DNA from: Burkholderiaceae bacterium
Lineage (GTDB): Bacteria > Pseudomonadota > Gammaproteobacteria > Burkholderiales > Burkholderiaceae_D
Assembly: GCA_019745005.1 (NCBI GenBank)
Contig: JAIETO010000256.1
Span: 1-38,446 of the forward strand
Direction of reading: 5' to 3'
Length of the DNA stretch: 38,446 nucleotides
The position numbers were made by a program, and so were the translations under genes. The notes under the pieces were generated by a model. That model did not search any database. It was not told where the DNA came from and saw only the letters and a program-made list of their open reading frames with translations. Position 1 is the first letter of the stretch; the number at the start of each line of letters is the position of its first letter. Shown here piece by piece: positions 2,111 through 10,219 of this stretch.

Positions 2111-4693
2111 TTAAGCAACAACCTTCACTTCAGCAATCCGCTGCGCAATATGCGCCAAGGCTTCTTGGACTTGATCAATCAAAATCAAACACAAATCACC
2201 TTCGCCTAAGCTTTCTAGTGCGGTATCAATCGCCACAAATTCGCCGTTGATTTCTTTGACGACTTTGGTTCGCTCCGCATTGTTGAGGCCTTTGCGTAGC
2301 AGGGCGACGACCTCGCCATCGGCGCGACCGCGTTGGCATTGGTCTTGGTAGAGAATCACTTCATCAAAGGCTTTGCCGAGAATTTCTGTTTGTTGGCTGA
2401 TGTCTTCATCGCGTCTGTCACCAGCGCCGCTGATCACGACAGAACGGCGTTTGCCCGGCATGGTGCTGACGGCTTGTACCAAGGCCAAAATGGCGTCGGG
2501 GTTATGGCCGTAGTCGGCGATCAAAGTAGCACCCTTATAGTCGAACACGTTGAAGCGGCCGGGCGCGTTGTCTGCTTCGTTCGCGAAGCTGCGCAGGCCT
2601 TGGCGAATCGCATCCCAATTCAGGTTGATGCCCCAGGCTGCCGCTACAGAAGCCATCACGTTTTCTACTTGAAATCCGATACTGCCGTTGCGCGTAATGG
2701 GAATCTCAGCGAGTGGGATTTTATGGTGAATCTTGCCCTCAACGGCACAAAGATGGCCATCCTCAACGAACACGACGCGGTGCCCTTGCGCACGGTGCGC
2801 GGCCATGACGGGATGATGCTTGTCCGCCGCGAAGAAGGTCACGGCACCGGTACAGTTATGTGCCATGCCAGCCACGATGGGGTCGGCTGCGTTGAGCACT
2901 GCAACGCCGTGCTCGGCGACGTTTTGCACAATAACCCGCTTTAAAACGGCAAGGTCTTCAACTGTGGTGATGTAATTTAAACCCAAGTGGTCACCAGAAC
3001 CGATGTTCGTCACGACGGCGACCTGGCAGCGATCATACGCCAAGCCTTCACGCAAAATACCGCCGCGCGCCGTTTCAAAAACAGCGGCATCTACATCGGG
3101 GTGCGATAGGACGTTGCGCGCACTGCGCGGGCCGCTGCAATCGCCGCTATCAATCTGGCGTCCTTCGACGTACACGCCATCGGTATTTGTCATGCCGGTG
3201 CGCAAGCCGCTGGCGGTTAGTAGGTGTGCAATCAAACGCACCGTCGTGGTTTTACCGTTGGTGCCCGTTACTGAAATAATTGGAATGCGCCCATCATCAC
3301 CGTCTTCAAACATGGCAGAAATAATCGCCTCGCCGACCGCACGGCCTTTGCCAAACGAGGGCGATAAGTGCATGCGCAGGCCAGGTGCGGCATTCACTTC
3401 GACCACGCCACCGTTTTGTTCTTCGATAGGCTTTAAAACACTCTCGCACACCACGTCTACACCGCAAATGTCGAGACCGATCATGTGCGCGGCAGCCACT
3501 GCACGCGCGGCGACTTCTGGGTGTACATCGTCAGTGACGTCAGTGGCGCTGCCGCCGGTTGATAAGTTGGCGTTATTGCGCAAAATCACACGTTTGCCTT
3601 TAGGTGGCACAGAATCTGCGTCGTAGCCTTGTTTGGCGAGGCTGGCTAGGGCGATATCGTCAAACCGAATCTTGGTTAATGAAGTGGCGTGGCCGCTGCC
3701 ACGGCGCGGGTCTTTGTTAACTTGTTCGACCAATTCGCGTACCGAGTGAGTGCCGTCGCCCACCACTTGTGGCGGGTCACGCCGCGCTGCTGCAACTAGT
3801 TTGTTACCAATCACCAGTAAGCGGAAATCATTGCCGGGCAAGAAGCGCTCAACCAAAATGTCGTCGCGAAACTCGCTGGCCGCAACATACGCTGTATTGA
3901 GCTGTTCTTGCGTGGTGACGTTAACCGTGACGCCTTTGCCTTGGTTGCCATCTTTCGGCTTTACCACCACGGGTAAGCCGATTTCTAAGGCAATTTTCCA
4001 AGCGTCTTCCATGTCGACAGCGGTGCGGCCGCGTGGCACAGGTACGCCTGCGGCATGGAGTAAATCTTTGGTTAATTCTTTGTCTTGCGCGATGGATTCT
4101 GCAATGGCGCTTGTGCCATCCATCTCCGCCGCTTGAATTTTGCGTTGGCGACTGCCCCAACCAAAAGTGACTAAGCTTCCGTTGGTTAAGCGGCGATAGG
4201 GAATATTGCGCGCCAAAGCTGCATTCACAATAGAGCCAGTGGACGGCCCTAAGCGCACGTCTTCATCCAATTCGCGCAATTGCATGAGCGCGGCGGGTAA
4301 ATCAAATTCCGTATCATTCAGTGCTGCATTGCAGAGTTGTTCTGCTAAGTCTAATGCGAGACGCCCGACGGACTCTTCCGAATACTCGACCACAACTTGA
4401 AATATTCCTGCTTCTAAGGTTTGTGTCGTGCGGCTGAAGGTGACCGCGCAACCTGCTTGCGCTTGCAGCCCCAGGGCGGCTAATTCCAACACATGCGCCA
4501 TGGGAATCGCGTCGTCATTACCAGTGGTTTGTAGAGGGCCAATTTCTGGAAAACGAGCGCGTAGGCGGACTTCGAAATCGGGCAAATCAGCAACCGACAT
4601 GGCAGCCTGATTGCAATTAACGATGGCTTCAATTGCAGTGTGGTGGCTCCAGAGATTTGGGCCGCGCAGGGCACGTATGCGTGAAACTTCCAT
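2111..4693 (-). CDS. cphA: Cyanophycin synthetase (full-length CphA)
   Basis: This enzyme polymerises aspartate and arginine into cyanophycin granules using ATP, without a ribosome. At 860 residues it is of normal CphA1 length. The order is an N-terminal domain (LRGPNLWSHHTAIEAIV), an ATP-grasp domain at about 215-470 (PVVVKPKDGNQGKGVTV and DICGVDVV), and a Mur-ligase-like domain. The latter carries an intact P-loop, GTNGKTTT, at residues 477-484 and a C-terminal lobe with APGRFNVF and IADYGHNPDAI. The start is supported by an AAGGA ribosome site about 10 bases upstream. It lies downstream of cphA' on the same strand, separated by 167 AT-rich bases holding a repeat element. No cyanophycinase gene is visible in the window. 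Confidence 0.95.
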   Translation of the reverse strand: MEVSRIRALRGPNLWSHHTAIEAIVNCNQAAMSVADLPDFEVRLRARFPEIGPLQTTGNDDAIPMAHVLELAALGLQAQAGCAVTFSRTTQTLEAGIFQVVVEYSEESVGRLALDLAEQLCNAALNDTEFDLPAALMQLRELDEDVRLGPSTGSIVNAALARNIPYRRLTNGSLVTFGWGSRQRKIQAAEMDGTSAIAESIAQDKELTKDLLHAAGVPVPRGRTAVDMEDAWKIALEIGLPVVVKPKDGNQGKGVTVNVTTQEQLNTAYVAASEFRDDILVERFLPGNDFRLLVIGNKLVAAARRDPPQVVGDGTHSVRELVEQVNKDPRRGSGHATSLTKIRFDDIALASLAKQGYDADSVPPKGKRVILRNNANLSTGGSATDVTDDVHPEVAARAVAAAHMIGLDICGVDVVCESVLKPIEEQNGGVVEVNAAPGLRMHLSPSFGKGRAVGEAIISAMFEDGDDGRIPIISVTGTNGKTTTVRLIAHLLTASGLRTGMTNTDGVYVEGRQIDSGDCSGPRSARNVLSHPDVDAAVFETARGGILREGLAYDRCQVAVVTNIGSGDHLGLNYITTVEDLAVLKRVIVQNVAEHGVAVLNAADPIVAGMAHNCTGAVTFFAADKHHPVMAAHRAQGHRVVFVEDGHLCAVEGKIHHKIPLAEIPITRNGSIGFQVENVMASVAAAWGINLNWDAIRQGLRSFANEADNAPGRFNVFDYKGATLIADYGHNPDAILALVQAVSTMPGKRRSVVISGAGDRRDEDISQQTEILGKAFDEVILYQDQCQRGRADGEVVALLRKGLNNAERTKVVKEINGEFVAIDTALESLGEGDLCLILIDQVQEALAHIAQRIAEVKVVA

Positions 4694-4860: not shown

Positions 4861-7041
4861 TCAAAACGTCGCCCGCTTTCGATTCGAGTCAAAAGTACGC
4901 AAACCCGCGCTAATAAAGTCGAGTGAGATGTCCATCGCCCAACTTGCAGCAACAGCAGCCATCACGCTTTCAGGCTGTTCAGCTTTGACTGGTTTCAAGG
5001 AGGTGAGCGCGATGCTGCCATGTTCGCTTTCGCCTTCGATTAACACAATCTCGTTATTGCGGAGAACCACCACGCGGCCACCTGCGGCGCGGTGTGTGCT
5101 AATCGCAGGAAGCGCTTCATCCATGCCGTAAAAAATCACGCTGCCATCACAAAGCTCGGCCAGTTCAGCCACTTGCGCATCCCCAGCGTTGAGCACCGCG
5201 GCACCTTGCGGCAAAACCACATCCACCTGTGTGCGCATCACTTTGAACATGTGCTCCGGTTCGCTCACGTAGTAGTCAGCCAATTTTTCAAGGCCTGACA
5301 TATCGGTGACGACGCCGATCAAGCATTTGTCGTAAGCGAGGCCGTCCGTCAAGATCATTTCTGCATTGGCTTCAAACACGGCGGCTTGTACTGTGCGATT
5401 CATGAGTAAATTTTGTCCTGCCCTCCAGGTCGCACAATTGTTTTTCTCCACTTGGCGCTGATCAAGAAACAAGCCGTGTTCACATGCCACGCCTGTGTAT
5501 TTGCCGCTCATCGTCAATATGCTGGCGATGAGGCGCGCGATTAAGCTGGTTCCTTTGCTTCCCGCGACACCGATCAGGGGAATACGTCCTGTTTCGTGCT
5601 CGGCGAACAGGTGATTGATGATAGCTGTGCCGATCGGGCGTGCTTTGCCGCTGGCTGGCTTTAAATGGGCAAGCAGGCCTGGGCTGGCGTTGACTTCGAT
5701 AATTGCGCCGCGCTGCTCTTCCAATGGCTTTGAAATATCCTCGGCAACCAGATCAACGCCGGCGATGTCGAGGCCAACAATGCGAGCCGCGAGCGTCGCC
5801 GCACGAGCGACTTCTGGATGCACTTCGTCAGTCACATCAAAGGCAACATTGCCATTCGGTTGGATCAGCACTTTTTGTCCGGCTAAGGGAACTGAGTAGG
5901 CCGTCATCCCTTGCCGTTCTAATTCCAAGATAATTTCGGCACCGTGCTGGGGCGCTAAGGCATTGAGTGGCGCATCTTCGGTGGTGCCGCGACGCGGGTC
6001 GGTGTTGATTTGGCTATCGACCAATTCAATAATATTGGAGGTGCCATCACCTGTTACCCAAAGCGCTTCGCCCTTTGCCGCCGCTACGACATGCTTGCCC
6101 ACCACAAGCACGCGATGTTCGTTGCCCGTAACAAAGCGTTCGACGATGACACTTTTGCTATCGCCTTTTCGCGCTGCGAGATGGTAGGCGGCGACCACGT
6201 CGGCTTCCGTCATCAAATTTAGTGAGACGCCTCGACCATGGTTGCCGTCGTAGGGTTTGACTACCACCGGTAAGCCAATATCCTGCGCTTCTTCCCACGC
6301 TTCTTCAGCGCTGCGCACCAGGCTGCCTTCAGGAACGGGCACACCGCAGGCTTGTAAAAGCGTCTTGGTTAGGTCTTTGTCACTGGCGATACTTTCCGCA
6401 ATTGCGCTTGTGCGATCCGTCTCGGCCGTCCAGATACGCCGCTGTGCGGAGCCATGCCCTAGCTGCACCAAATTCCCCTCGGTAAGGCGTATTGACGGGA
6501 TACGACGCTCGGTTGCGGCCTCAACAATATGCGCTGTGCTGGGGCCGAGGCAATAATCGTCAACGATGTCTTTTAATTCGGTAATACCTGCGGCGAGATC
6601 AAACGCCGTATCGTTAATCATCGCCATCAAAAAATTCCGTGCGAGGGTTAAAGCGGCGCGACCTACTTGCTCTTGACGTGTGCGAAACGCCATTTTGTAC
6701 ACGCCGGTTTGCGAGGTTGAGCGCGTCTGTCCAAAGCCCGTGCGCATGCCCGCAAGATTTTGTAATTCAAGCACGACGTGTTCGAGGATATGAGCAGCCC
6801 AGGTTCCTTCAATTAGGCGTTGATGAAAGCCACCCACTTCGCCCACGCCGCAGCGATGTTGCAACAGGCCGGGCAGGGCAGCGACCAGTCGCTCGGTGAA
6901 TCCAGGAATTAAGTTTGAGGGATATTCTTCAAGTGCGCCGATATCGACCCATACTTCGATGACAGGACGGTAGGTCCAAATATTTGGCCCACGCAAGTGG
7001 TTCACGCGAAGGAACTGAAGGTCTTTATTTTTTGTAGTCAT
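4861..7041 (-). CDS. cphA': Truncated cyanophycin synthetase paralogue CphA' (CphA2-like)
   Basis: It is homologous to CphA along its length and shares the N-terminal segment LRGPNIWTYRPVIEVWV. The ATP-grasp domain is well kept (PVVVKPYDGNHGRGVSL, DIAGVDLV, IIEVNASPG). At 726 residues it stops at FDSNRKRATF, just where CphA enters the C-terminal lobe of its ligase domain. The P-loop that reads GTNGKT in CphA is GSKGTS here (residues 494-499), so the usual lysine position is threonine. Second synthetases with a shortened, inactive ligase half are known in cyanobacteria (CphA2), and paired cphA/cphA' genes are known in betaproteobacteria. Which activity this copy keeps is inference; the ATP-grasp half looks functional. 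The start has no strong ribosome site. Confidence 0.9.
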   Translation of the reverse strand: MTTKNKDLQFLRVNHLRGPNIWTYRPVIEVWVDIGALEEYPSNLIPGFTERLVAALPGLLQHRCGVGEVGGFHQRLIEGTWAAHILEHVVLELQNLAGMRTGFGQTRSTSQTGVYKMAFRTRQEQVGRAALTLARNFLMAMINDTAFDLAAGITELKDIVDDYCLGPSTAHIVEAATERRIPSIRLTEGNLVQLGHGSAQRRIWTAETDRTSAIAESIASDKDLTKTLLQACGVPVPEGSLVRSAEEAWEEAQDIGLPVVVKPYDGNHGRGVSLNLMTEADVVAAYHLAARKGDSKSVIVERFVTGNEHRVLVVGKHVVAAAKGEALWVTGDGTSNIIELVDSQINTDPRRGTTEDAPLNALAPQHGAEIILELERQGMTAYSVPLAGQKVLIQPNGNVAFDVTDEVHPEVARAATLAARIVGLDIAGVDLVAEDISKPLEEQRGAIIEVNASPGLLAHLKPASGKARPIGTAIINHLFAEHETGRIPLIGVAGSKGTSLIARLIASILTMSGKYTGVACEHGLFLDQRQVEKNNCATWRAGQNLLMNRTVQAAVFEANAEMILTDGLAYDKCLIGVVTDMSGLEKLADYYVSEPEHMFKVMRTQVDVVLPQGAAVLNAGDAQVAELAELCDGSVIFYGMDEALPAISTHRAAGGRVVVLRNNEIVLIEGESEHGSIALTSLKPVKAEQPESVMAAVAASWAMDISLDFISAGLRTFDSNRKRATF

Positions 7042-7476: not shown

Positions 7477-9750
7477 ATGACATCTAATCAACTAAGTTCT
7501 ACGTCGCTTCCCGTTGCCAATGATTTGCCCGTAGCTTGGGCGGATGAGATGCAACTGCAATTGATGTCGGGAGAGAACGTACTTAGTACACTTGAGGTTG
7601 ACCTCGATGCGAAACTTCGTTTTGTTAAGGGCGTGATTGTTGTAACAAATCAGCGTTTGCTGTCAAAAGCAGCAGGCGAAACGGGCTGGGCATCATGGAA
7701 ATTTGCACATAACTTGAGCTTGCGGCACCACGATCATGCTGGTGTTGGTCATATTGAGTTGGTGAGTGATCAGCAATGTTTGGCGCATTGGCGTTTTACT
7801 TTGGGCCAGAACTTGCATGCAATCCGCTTGATCGATCAATTCAAAGAGCAATTGCATGAGCACGTCACTGGTGAACCTGTGCAGCAAGCCGAGCAAAACA
7901 TTTGCCCTAGCTGCAAAGCGAAGTTAGAACCGGATCAAGAGGAATGTCCAGTCTGCACAAAGGTGATTTACACGCCACCTTCAACATGGACCTTGTTTCG
8001 CTTATGGCGTTTTGCGCGCCCTTATCGCGTGCCCTTAGCGATTGGCTTCATGTTGATGTTGTTTGGAACGGCAGCGCACATGATTCCCCGCTATCTCACC
8101 AAACCATTAACGGATGAGGTTCTCATTCCCTATCAAAATGGTGTTGCGGTCGATCCAAAACTTGTTGCAATGTATATCGGCGGCTTACTTGGTTCCGCCG
8201 TGGTTGCTTGGCTGCTTAGTTGGGGTAAAACCTATATTTTGGCCTTGGTCTCTGAACGAATTGGCGCAGATTTACGCACCACAACTTACGAGCATTTATT
8301 AAAACTCTCGCTCGAATATTTTGGTGGCAAGCGCACAGGCGATTTGATGTCGCGTATCGGCAGTGAAAGTGACCGTATTTGCGTGTATTTGTCTTTACAT
8401 TTATTAGACTTTGCCACTGACGTATTGATGTTTTTTATGACAGCGGTCGCGCTTTTGCAAATCAATACGAAACTTGCCTTGGTCACTTTACTGCCGCTCC
8501 CATTTATCGCTTTTATGATTCACAAAGTACGGGATAAATTACGTACCGGTTTTGAGAAAATTGATCGCGTATGGGGCGAAGTCACAAATGTGCTGGCTGA
8601 TACGATTCCCGGCATTCGAGTCGTCAAAGCGTTTGCGCAAGAAAGCCGTGAAGCAGGGCGTTTTCGCGAAGCCAATAAACACAATTTAGCAGTCAATGAC
8701 AAACTGAATAAAATCTGGTCTTTGTTTTCGCCCACCGTTTCGTTCCTGACCGACCTTGGTATTTTGGTGGTTTGGGCTTTCGGTATTTGGCAGGTTTCAA
8801 GGAATGAAATCACCGTAGGTGCCTTGGTCGCTGCCGTCGCATTTATCAGTAATTTCTATGGTCGTATTGATTCAATGAGCCGGATCGTATCTGTCACCCA
8901 AAAATCAGCTTCTGCGGCCAAACGTATTTTTGATATTTTGGACCATGTGTCCAGCGTTCCAGAACCACAACAACCTGTGAAAGTGAAGGAAGTACGGGGA
9001 GAGATTGAACTACGCGAGGTGGGTTTCCGCTATGGCAATCGTGCTGTGAATCGCGGAATTACGCTGCATATAAAACCAGGTGAAATGATAGGCTTGGTTG
9101 GACATAGCGGCTCTGGCAAAAGTACTTTGGTCAACTTGATTTGTCGCTTTTACGATGTGTCTGAGGGCGCGATTTTGTTGGATGGCGTGGATATTCGCTC
9201 GTTCACAATTGCTGATTACCGGCGAAATATTGGTCTTGTTTTACAAGAACCTTTTCTATTTTTTGGCAGCATTGCCGATAACATCGCGTACGGAAAACCC
9301 CATGCAACAAGGGCCGAAATCATTGCAGCGGCGCGCGCTGCACATGCACACGAGTTTATTTTGCGCTTGCCGCAAGGCTATGATTCGATGGTGGGGGAAC
9401 GTGGACAAGGCTTATCGGGCGGAGAACGCCAGCGTATTTCAATTGCCAGAGCTTTATTGATTGATCCGAAAATTTTGATCATGGATGAAGCCACGTCGTC
9501 TGTGGACTCGGAAACAGAAAAAGAAATCCAAAAGGCACTCGATAATCTCGTCAAAGGCCGCACGACGATTGCGATTGCACATCGCTTATCTACCTTGCAA
9601 AAAGCAGATCGCTTGGTCGTGCTAGATCGCGGTCGCGTGGTTGAGGTGGGGAGCCACGACGAATTGATGGCGCGCGAAGATGCTTATTTCCGTTTGTATG
9701 AAGCGCAAGCAAGAAACGCGGAAGCGAATGCTTCAATCGGCGGAGAATAA
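7477..9750 (+). CDS. Cyanophycin-linked ABC exporter with N-terminal zinc ribbon
   Basis: This is a fused membrane/ATPase half-transporter of the type I exporter (MsbA-like) class, 757 residues. Residues 1-140 form a soluble domain of unclear fold. A zinc-ribbon signature follows, with Cys pairs CPSC at 143-146 and CPVC at 157-160. The membrane domain covers about 178-470 and the ATPase domain the rest: Walker A GHSGSGKST (542-550), signature LSGGERQR (about 646), Walker B ILIMDEATSSVD, H-loop AIAHRLS. It diverges from cphA' and is followed after one base by a DUF1854 gene. I recall that this pair recurs beside cyanophycin synthetases in betaproteobacteria; the substrate is unknown. The ATG at 7477 lacks a clear ribosome site, and no other start lies between it and the upstream in-frame stop. 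Confidence 0.88.
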   Translation: MTSNQLSSTSLPVANDLPVAWADEMQLQLMSGENVLSTLEVDLDAKLRFVKGVIVVTNQRLLSKAAGETGWASWKFAHNLSLRHHDHAGVGHIELVSDQQCLAHWRFTLGQNLHAIRLIDQFKEQLHEHVTGEPVQQAEQNICPSCKAKLEPDQEECPVCTKVIYTPPSTWTLFRLWRFARPYRVPLAIGFMLMLFGTAAHMIPRYLTKPLTDEVLIPYQNGVAVDPKLVAMYIGGLLGSAVVAWLLSWGKTYILALVSERIGADLRTTTYEHLLKLSLEYFGGKRTGDLMSRIGSESDRICVYLSLHLLDFATDVLMFFMTAVALLQINTKLALVTLLPLPFIAFMIHKVRDKLRTGFEKIDRVWGEVTNVLADTIPGIRVVKAFAQESREAGRFREANKHNLAVNDKLNKIWSLFSPTVSFLTDLGILVVWAFGIWQVSRNEITVGALVAAVAFISNFYGRIDSMSRIVSVTQKSASAAKRIFDILDHVSSVPEPQQPVKVKEVRGEIELREVGFRYGNRAVNRGITLHIKPGEMIGLVGHSGSGKSTLVNLICRFYDVSEGAILLDGVDIRSFTIADYRRNIGLVLQEPFLFFGSIADNIAYGKPHATRAEIIAAARAAHAHEFILRLPQGYDSMVGERGQGLSGGERQRISIARALLIDPKILIMDEATSSVDSETEKEIQKALDNLVKGRTTIAIAHRLSTLQKADRLVVLDRGRVVEVGSHDELMAREDAYFRLYEAQARNAEANASIGGE

Positions 9751-9751
9751 A

Positions 9752-10219
9752 ATGACGACCTTATTTGAACTAAGCCGCAATGCATTTGGCCACCTCGTTC
9801 TCACGCAAGAAAACGGGCAGGTGATTGAAAACGTCAACCCCGTGCGTGCTTTTCCCATCCAATCGCCTAACGATGGCATCTCCTTGGTTCAAGAAGACGG
9901 GAAGGAAGTCGCTTGGATAGATGCCTTGCATGACTTGCCTGAGCCTAGCCGTACTCTTGTTTCCGAAGAGCTTGAAGGACGCGAGTTCATGCCTGAAGTC
10001 TTGCGCATTGTGAGCGTGACGAGTTACGCCACGCCGTGTACTTGGAAAGTCGAAACAGACCGGGGCGAGACTGAGTTTGTACTCAAGGGCGAAGAGGATA
10101 TACGGCGCATAGGCAGCACATCACTGCTGATCGCTGACAATCACGGCATTCATTTTTTGATCCGCGATATGTTTCAGGTCGATAAACATAGCCGCAAAAT
10201 TCTTGATCGTTTTTTATAG
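9752..10219 (+). CDS. DUF1854 family protein, cyanophycin-associated
   Basis: This is a 155-residue soluble protein without signal peptide or membrane segment. It contains NPVRAFPIQSPNDGISLV and a C-terminal stretch, HGIHFLIRDMFQVDKHS, typical of DUF1854. The ORF track starts at 9680 inside the ABC gene, but the ATG at 9752 is preferred. It has GGAG six bases upstream and sits one base after the ABC stop codon, so the two are almost surely co-translated. From context it probably assists or regulates the transporter or polymer metabolism; the biochemical role is unknown. It is convergent with the acetyltransferase gene, 36 bases away. Confidence 0.85.
   Translation: MTTLFELSRNAFGHLVLTQENGQVIENVNPVRAFPIQSPNDGISLVQEDGKEVAWIDALHDLPEPSRTLVSEELEGREFMPEVLRIVSVTSYATPCTWKVETDRGETEFVLKGEEDIRRIGSTSLLIADNHGIHFLIRDMFQVDKHSRKILDRFL

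Follow-up and report, generated by a model that had tools for sequence, protein, structure and literature searches.

The best-described relatives of the proteins analyzed here are the cyanophycin synthetases CphA1 and CphA2. The N domain of SuCphA1 is a slow endo-cyanophycinase, with a Cx19HxxEH motif as its catalytic site, that cuts cyanophycin into (beta-Asp-Arg)4 and makes primers; it can supply a primer-dependent CphA1 in trans, with somewhat better performance when the synthetic sites lie in its own chain (PMC9262961). An engineered SuCphA1 heterodimer, N-G+M+ / N+G-M-, yields polymer in vitro (PMC9262961). CphA2 lacks the ligase P-loop and lid (PMC9427784). Adjacent synthetase genes are known in the beta-proteobacteria R. 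eutropha H16 (Adames 2013, via PMC8560796) and Sideroxydans (PMC5178258). Overexpression of synthetase homologs from R. eutropha H16 reportedly gave no cyanophycin (Adames 2013, via PMC8560796).

The window, a stretch of 38,446 nucleotides from a Burkholderiaceae bacterium, carries two adjacent synthetase-like genes on the minus strand, together with two plus-strand genes that match cyanophycin-associated models:

2111..4693, minus strand: cphA, 860 aa, with the ligase domain and aspartate pocket intact
4861..7041, minus strand: cphA', 726 aa, with an N domain, an ATP-grasp G domain and a ligase core without lid
7477..9750, plus strand: "cyanophycin metabolism-associated ABC transporter" (NF052233, 1385 bits, cut-off 880)
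9752..10219, plus strand: "cyanophycin metabolism-associated DUF1854 family protein" (NF052234, 238 bits, cut-off 150)

CphA' is 43% identical to the neighboring CphA, which is its sole other close relative in the genome; no further copy of CphA' was found there. Against TIGR02068, the CphA1 equivalog, CphA scores 986 bits and CphA' 696 bits, below the curated cut-off of 850. Both exceed the curated cut-off of 877 for NF010623 / PRK14016 "cyanophycin synthetase" (1256 and 1011 bits, respectively), a model that lumps the two proteins under an identical NCBIfam name and of which CphA' covers profile positions 1-720 of 871. Pfam Mur_ligase_M and Mur_ligase_C match CphA at residues 475-686 and 712-837; neither matches CphA'. 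The genome of the window (G000) also holds three cyanophycinase-family matches of the long, CphE-like kind (C164, C201, and C54), in frames of 434-476 aa.

Active sites of CphA' and CphA

Residues whose roles are known from structures or mutants were scored on SuCphA1 numbering (PMC9262961, PMC9427784) in 102 CphA', 99 paired CphA, and 21 other CphA1s, including proteins from f80, another family of the class. The corresponding features of CphA' in the window are as follows:

6778..6852, minus strand: N-domain hydrolase motif Cx19HxxEH (C64, H84, E87, H88), complete in 102/102 CphA'
6229..6249, minus strand: G-domain phosphate loop DGNHGRG (residues 265-271), intact in the window and destroyed in f80 CphA'
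6070..6072, minus strand: Gly324, replacing the Asp-binding R323 of CphA1
5842..5847, minus strand: V399/A400, junction left by the loss of five residues (LSTGG) from the large loop that holds the incoming Asp
5671..5673, minus strand: Leu457, replacing the Asp-binding R458 of CphA1
5539..5562, minus strand: former ligase P-loop GSKGTSLI (residues 494-501)
4861..4893, minus strand: C-terminal end shortly past the core/lid boundary, including the stop codon

Of the active sites, only the N-domain site (C59, H79, E82, H83) is shared by all 102 CphA'. It is complete in 19/21 other CphA1s and in none of the 99 paired CphA. Metal ligands, general base, and second shell (C59, H79, H83, E82, H57, E87) are all invariant in CphA'; the sequence-only reading of this locus had not mentioned this hydrolase site. 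That reading had described the ATP-grasp half as well kept, which holds for the ATP/acyl-phosphate residues (K220, K261, H267, R309, D431, E450; complete in 88/102 CphA') and fails for the aspartate pocket. The aspartate-binding residues R323, S396, and R458 occur together in 0/102 CphA', 99/99 CphA, and 21/21 other CphA1s; the LSTGG large loop, present in 99/99 CphA, is deleted in 101/102 CphA', and the remaining one has a larger deletion.

In the ligase (M) domain, CphA' indeed reads GSKGTSLI (window 5562-5539) where CphA reads GTNGKTTT (3265-3242), and K499 and the D585-H586 pair (SuCphA1 numbering) are gone in most CphA'. The protein also stops before the C-terminal ligase lobe, as had been noted, 9 residues beyond GLRTF, the motif at the end of the ligase core. 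We agree that this is tidy domain loss and not decay: the open reading frame is kept genus-wide, ligase function is lost in 81/91 relatives, and all 81 of these terminate 1-32 residues past the same domain boundary. A frameshift, sequencing error, or assembly artefact was ruled out as the cause of the CphA' end, which is the same throughout the genus, and so was a lid remnant between cphA' and cphA, for which the 167-bp gap is too small. All 102 CphA' share two ligase-core residues, 603 Arg and 607 Asp, that line the N-site polymer groove, which would account for retention of the dead core. The AlphaFold model of CphA' (mean pLDDT 82, pTM 0.67) places a final helix at residues 707-716 before a disordered end and resembles a lidless CphA1, with TeCphA1 and SuCphA1 as the top structural matches and CphA2s ranking lower; this resemblance is partly built in, since the alignment feeding the model consisted mostly of CphA1s.

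The partner CphA has the opposite pattern, with two features that mark it:

3242..3265, minus strand: intact ligase P-loop GTNGKTTT
4481..4519, minus strand: remains of the N-domain site (NDDAIPMAHVLEL), with the C59/F67/R70 loop absent and H83 replaced by Leu

The N-domain loop of paired CphA was removed by a clean excision, usually of net nine residues. In each paralog, then, a loop has been cleanly excised from a site that is intact in the other: the N-domain loop in CphA, LSTGG in CphA'. Separately, position 267 in the phosphate loop of the G domain, a catalytic His, is Gln in 88/90 paired CphA and His in 20/21 other CphA1s. The idea that Gln267 goes strictly with the split was abandoned, since f80 CphA are mixed His/Gln at this position.

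Distribution and history of the pair

The CphA'/CphA pair is a fixed feature of the genus: 40/40 sampled genomes match, with gaps that correspond to fragmented assemblies, and the complete CphA' of the genus that we examined are 720-726 aa long, with one exception. Across Burkholderiales, the pair occurs in about 108/299 sampled genomes, and of the 117 genomes in which the family is present, about 108 keep CphA'. It is also found in 12/36 genomes of f80. A plasmid collection contained classical CphA1s only, with no CphA' found.

These plasmid-collection CphA1s served as outgroups for a FastTree phylogeny of the N+G columns, in which CphA' and CphA each formed a clade (support of 100 for both) and were sisters (98). 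The pair therefore goes back to a single duplication. All CphA' have lost the aspartate pocket, including ten (L097, L100, L103, L105, L107, L113, L115, L121, L122, and L127; about 813-883 residues) that retain catalytic ligase residues, with an intact P-loop, D585-H586, and a lid that is whole or partly shortened. It follows that the ligase was lost later, and more than once; well-supported branches force at least 4 changes of ligase state, and the resolved tree requires 15 losses if regain is impossible. Erosion has gone further in f80, in which ten CphA' lack the G-domain phosphate-loop sequence, each with a perfect N site. Among f80 proteins, E450 and H267 are missing from L164, and L220 (G117) has a wholly destroyed ATP-grasp site, with ~60 residues deleted; the N site is perfect in both.

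Other arrangements of CphA homologs were also observed. At L212 (G557; also G365 and G535), a second cluster comprises two full-length, oppositely oriented CphA1s adjoining CphB, both without the N site. Two proteins of CphA2-like size found outside cyanobacteria, L204 and L205 (G023; 629 and 585 aa), partly keep the ATP-grasp residues and lack the ligase P-loop and the N site. Unpaired CphA1s (L207, L208, L213, L214, and others) frequently precede a second Mur-ligase-like protein, about 580 aa long. Deinococcus deserti has two CphA genes (L219 and L322) on two plasmids, with no cyanophycinase adjacent to L219 and no N-domain site in it; this is possibly a second case of divided labor.

Interpretation of the pair

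Because the two paralogs are adjacent, arose in one duplication, and have complementary sites, we conclude that CphA and CphA' are probably the products of a reciprocal functional split. An ancestral, self-sufficient, three-site CphA1 would have duplicated once. CphA would have kept the ATP-grasp site, which adds Asp, and the Mur ligase, which adds Arg, and lost the N-domain hydrolase loop; CphA' would have kept the N-domain zinc-hydrolase (endo-cyanophycinase) site and lost the aspartate pocket, ligase P-loop, and lid. CphA is then predicted to polymerize, and CphA', presumably binding zinc, to cut the polymer into short primers for an otherwise primer-dependent CphA, with cyanophycin as the likely product. 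CphA' would most likely be a subunit of a mixed complex with CphA, or at least act in trans. The earlier suggestion of a partner subunit for CphA survives in this modified form, to which adjacency, a single duplication, and complementary active sites all point.

Patterns of conservation argue for the split. Within the genus, the N domain of CphA' (mean identity, 0.79) is conserved like the G domain (0.79) and far above the M core (0.64), and CphA is least conserved in its N domain (N, 0.78; G, 0.89; M core, 0.84); in addition, f80 CphA' have lost the ATP-grasp site too, with the N site perfect. On the other side stand the better performance of the SuCphA1 N site in cis with synthetic sites, the Gln that replaces His267 in most paired CphA, and the ATP residues kept in most CphA', which a pure hydrolase would not need and which leave another ATP-dependent role open. 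The R. eutropha H16 homologs, as relayed in PMC8560796, gave no cyanophycin, and therefore the product may differ. If the split is real, it would explain the loss of the N site in paired CphA, and CphA expressed without CphA' should need a primer.

The role of CphA' could extend beyond priming, although we regard this as tentative and rather doubtful: a hydrolase derived from a synthetase may serve both as primer-maker and as the missing intracellular cyanophycinase of beta-proteobacteria, so that two paralogs would run synthesis and breakdown.

It is unlikely that CphA' serves chiefly a structural or regulatory function within a CphA-CphA' oligomer, with the ATP site as sensor or scaffold and the N site as a polymer anchor and not a hydrolase. 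Tandem paralogs probably have common oligomer surfaces, the ATP residues are usually kept, and the CphA1 N domain also anchors polymer (PMC9262961); however, the invariance of all six N-site residues goes beyond what anchoring needs, and the ATP site is dispensable in f80.

A role chiefly in degradation, in bacteria without CphB and with priming secondary, seems distinctly improbable, even though CphB distribution is suggestive. Among Burkholderiales genomes with an unpaired CphA1, in which the N site is kept in 6/6 sequences examined, CphB is present in 8/8 (233-251 bits), vs CphB of that strength in about 4/108 paired genomes, three of these four beside additional full-length CphA1s; the association with the unpaired state has a Fisher p of about 8e-10, a plain count that ignores descent and in which the unpaired genomes come from two families only. 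The missing cyanophycinase of CphA1-bearing beta-proteobacteria is, moreover, a noted puzzle (PMC10206079). Yet the known N-domain activity is slow and yields four-unit pieces, not dipeptides, and the genome of the window has its own CphE-like matches.

The sequence-only reading had likened CphA' to CphA2 and proposed that it joins beta-Asp-Arg dipeptides at a single ATP-grasp site, which we now consider very unlikely. For comparison, we took three homologs from cyanobacterial genomes (L312-L314), of which L312 matches the CphA2 structures 8FXH (1082 bits) and 7TA5 (719 bits). The parallel holds in the M domain, where P-loop and lid of the ligase are absent from both CphA2 and CphA'; the two also have R458 altered, and the ATP/acyl-phosphate residues are mostly kept in CphA'. 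It breaks down in the G and N domains, which are opposite. The solved CphA2s (7TA5, 8FXH) keep R323 and the N394/S396 large loop (ANLSSGG/ANISAGG), both lost in CphA'. The three homologs likewise keep R323 and an ANLSSGG-type loop, have H267 and R458 changed, and lack the ligase P-loop and the N site, which is never found in CphA2 and always in CphA'. Nor do f80 CphA' have an intact ATP-grasp loop. A CphA2 identity was accordingly rejected on G-domain and N-domain residues. Decay of CphA' as a duplicate on its way to a pseudogene is suggested by a faster-evolving ligase core and P-loop residues lost in many lineages but is effectively excluded by conservation, the reading frame being kept genus-wide and in about 108/117 Burkholderiales genomes having the family, with an invariant N site and well-conserved N and G domains.

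Comparison with known systems

CphA' shares with CphA1 (SuCphA1, TeCphA1) the N-G-Mcore fold, a complete N-domain hydrolase site, and the ATP residues of the G domain. Unlike CphA1, it lacks the aspartate pocket, the ligase P-loop, and the lid, and therefore it should catalyze neither synthetic reaction, at least by the known route. CphA2, the beta-Asp-Arg polymerase of cyanobacteria, is about 20% identical to CphA' in structural alignment, and in PDB alignments queried with CphA', L204, or L205, CphA1s outrank CphA2s. As judged from their residues, CphA' and CphA2 appear to have converged in the ligase domain only, which removes most support for a beta-Asp-Arg polymerase.

A similar organization is seen in the cphA1/cphA2-named pair of Sideroxydans, which, like CphA/CphA', consists of two adjacent synthetase genes without CphB (PMC5178258). 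In the texts consulted, such pairs of beta-proteobacteria are described as two synthetases, with no note of a site partition. The gene pair was thus already known; in the literature that we searched, we found no description of a reciprocal partition of its three active sites. Databases call both proteins "cyanophycin synthetase," and counts of CphA1s without the N site may include split halves.

If our reading is correct, cyanophycin synthesis in these bacteria is divided between a polymerase and a distinct primer-maker, both derived from one self-sufficient enzyme, in a clean case of reciprocal subfunctionalization that also bears on the lack of a recognizable cyanophycinase in most synthetase-bearing beta-proteobacteria. 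A close analog is the engineered N-G+M+ / N+G-M- heterodimer (PMC9262961), in which working sites are distributed over two chains as in CphA/CphA'. The heterodimer was built with laboratory point mutations, whereas CphA/CphA', known from sequence, would be a natural version with loop and domain deletions; by this analogy, the pair may be the natural counterpart of an arrangement hitherto only engineered.
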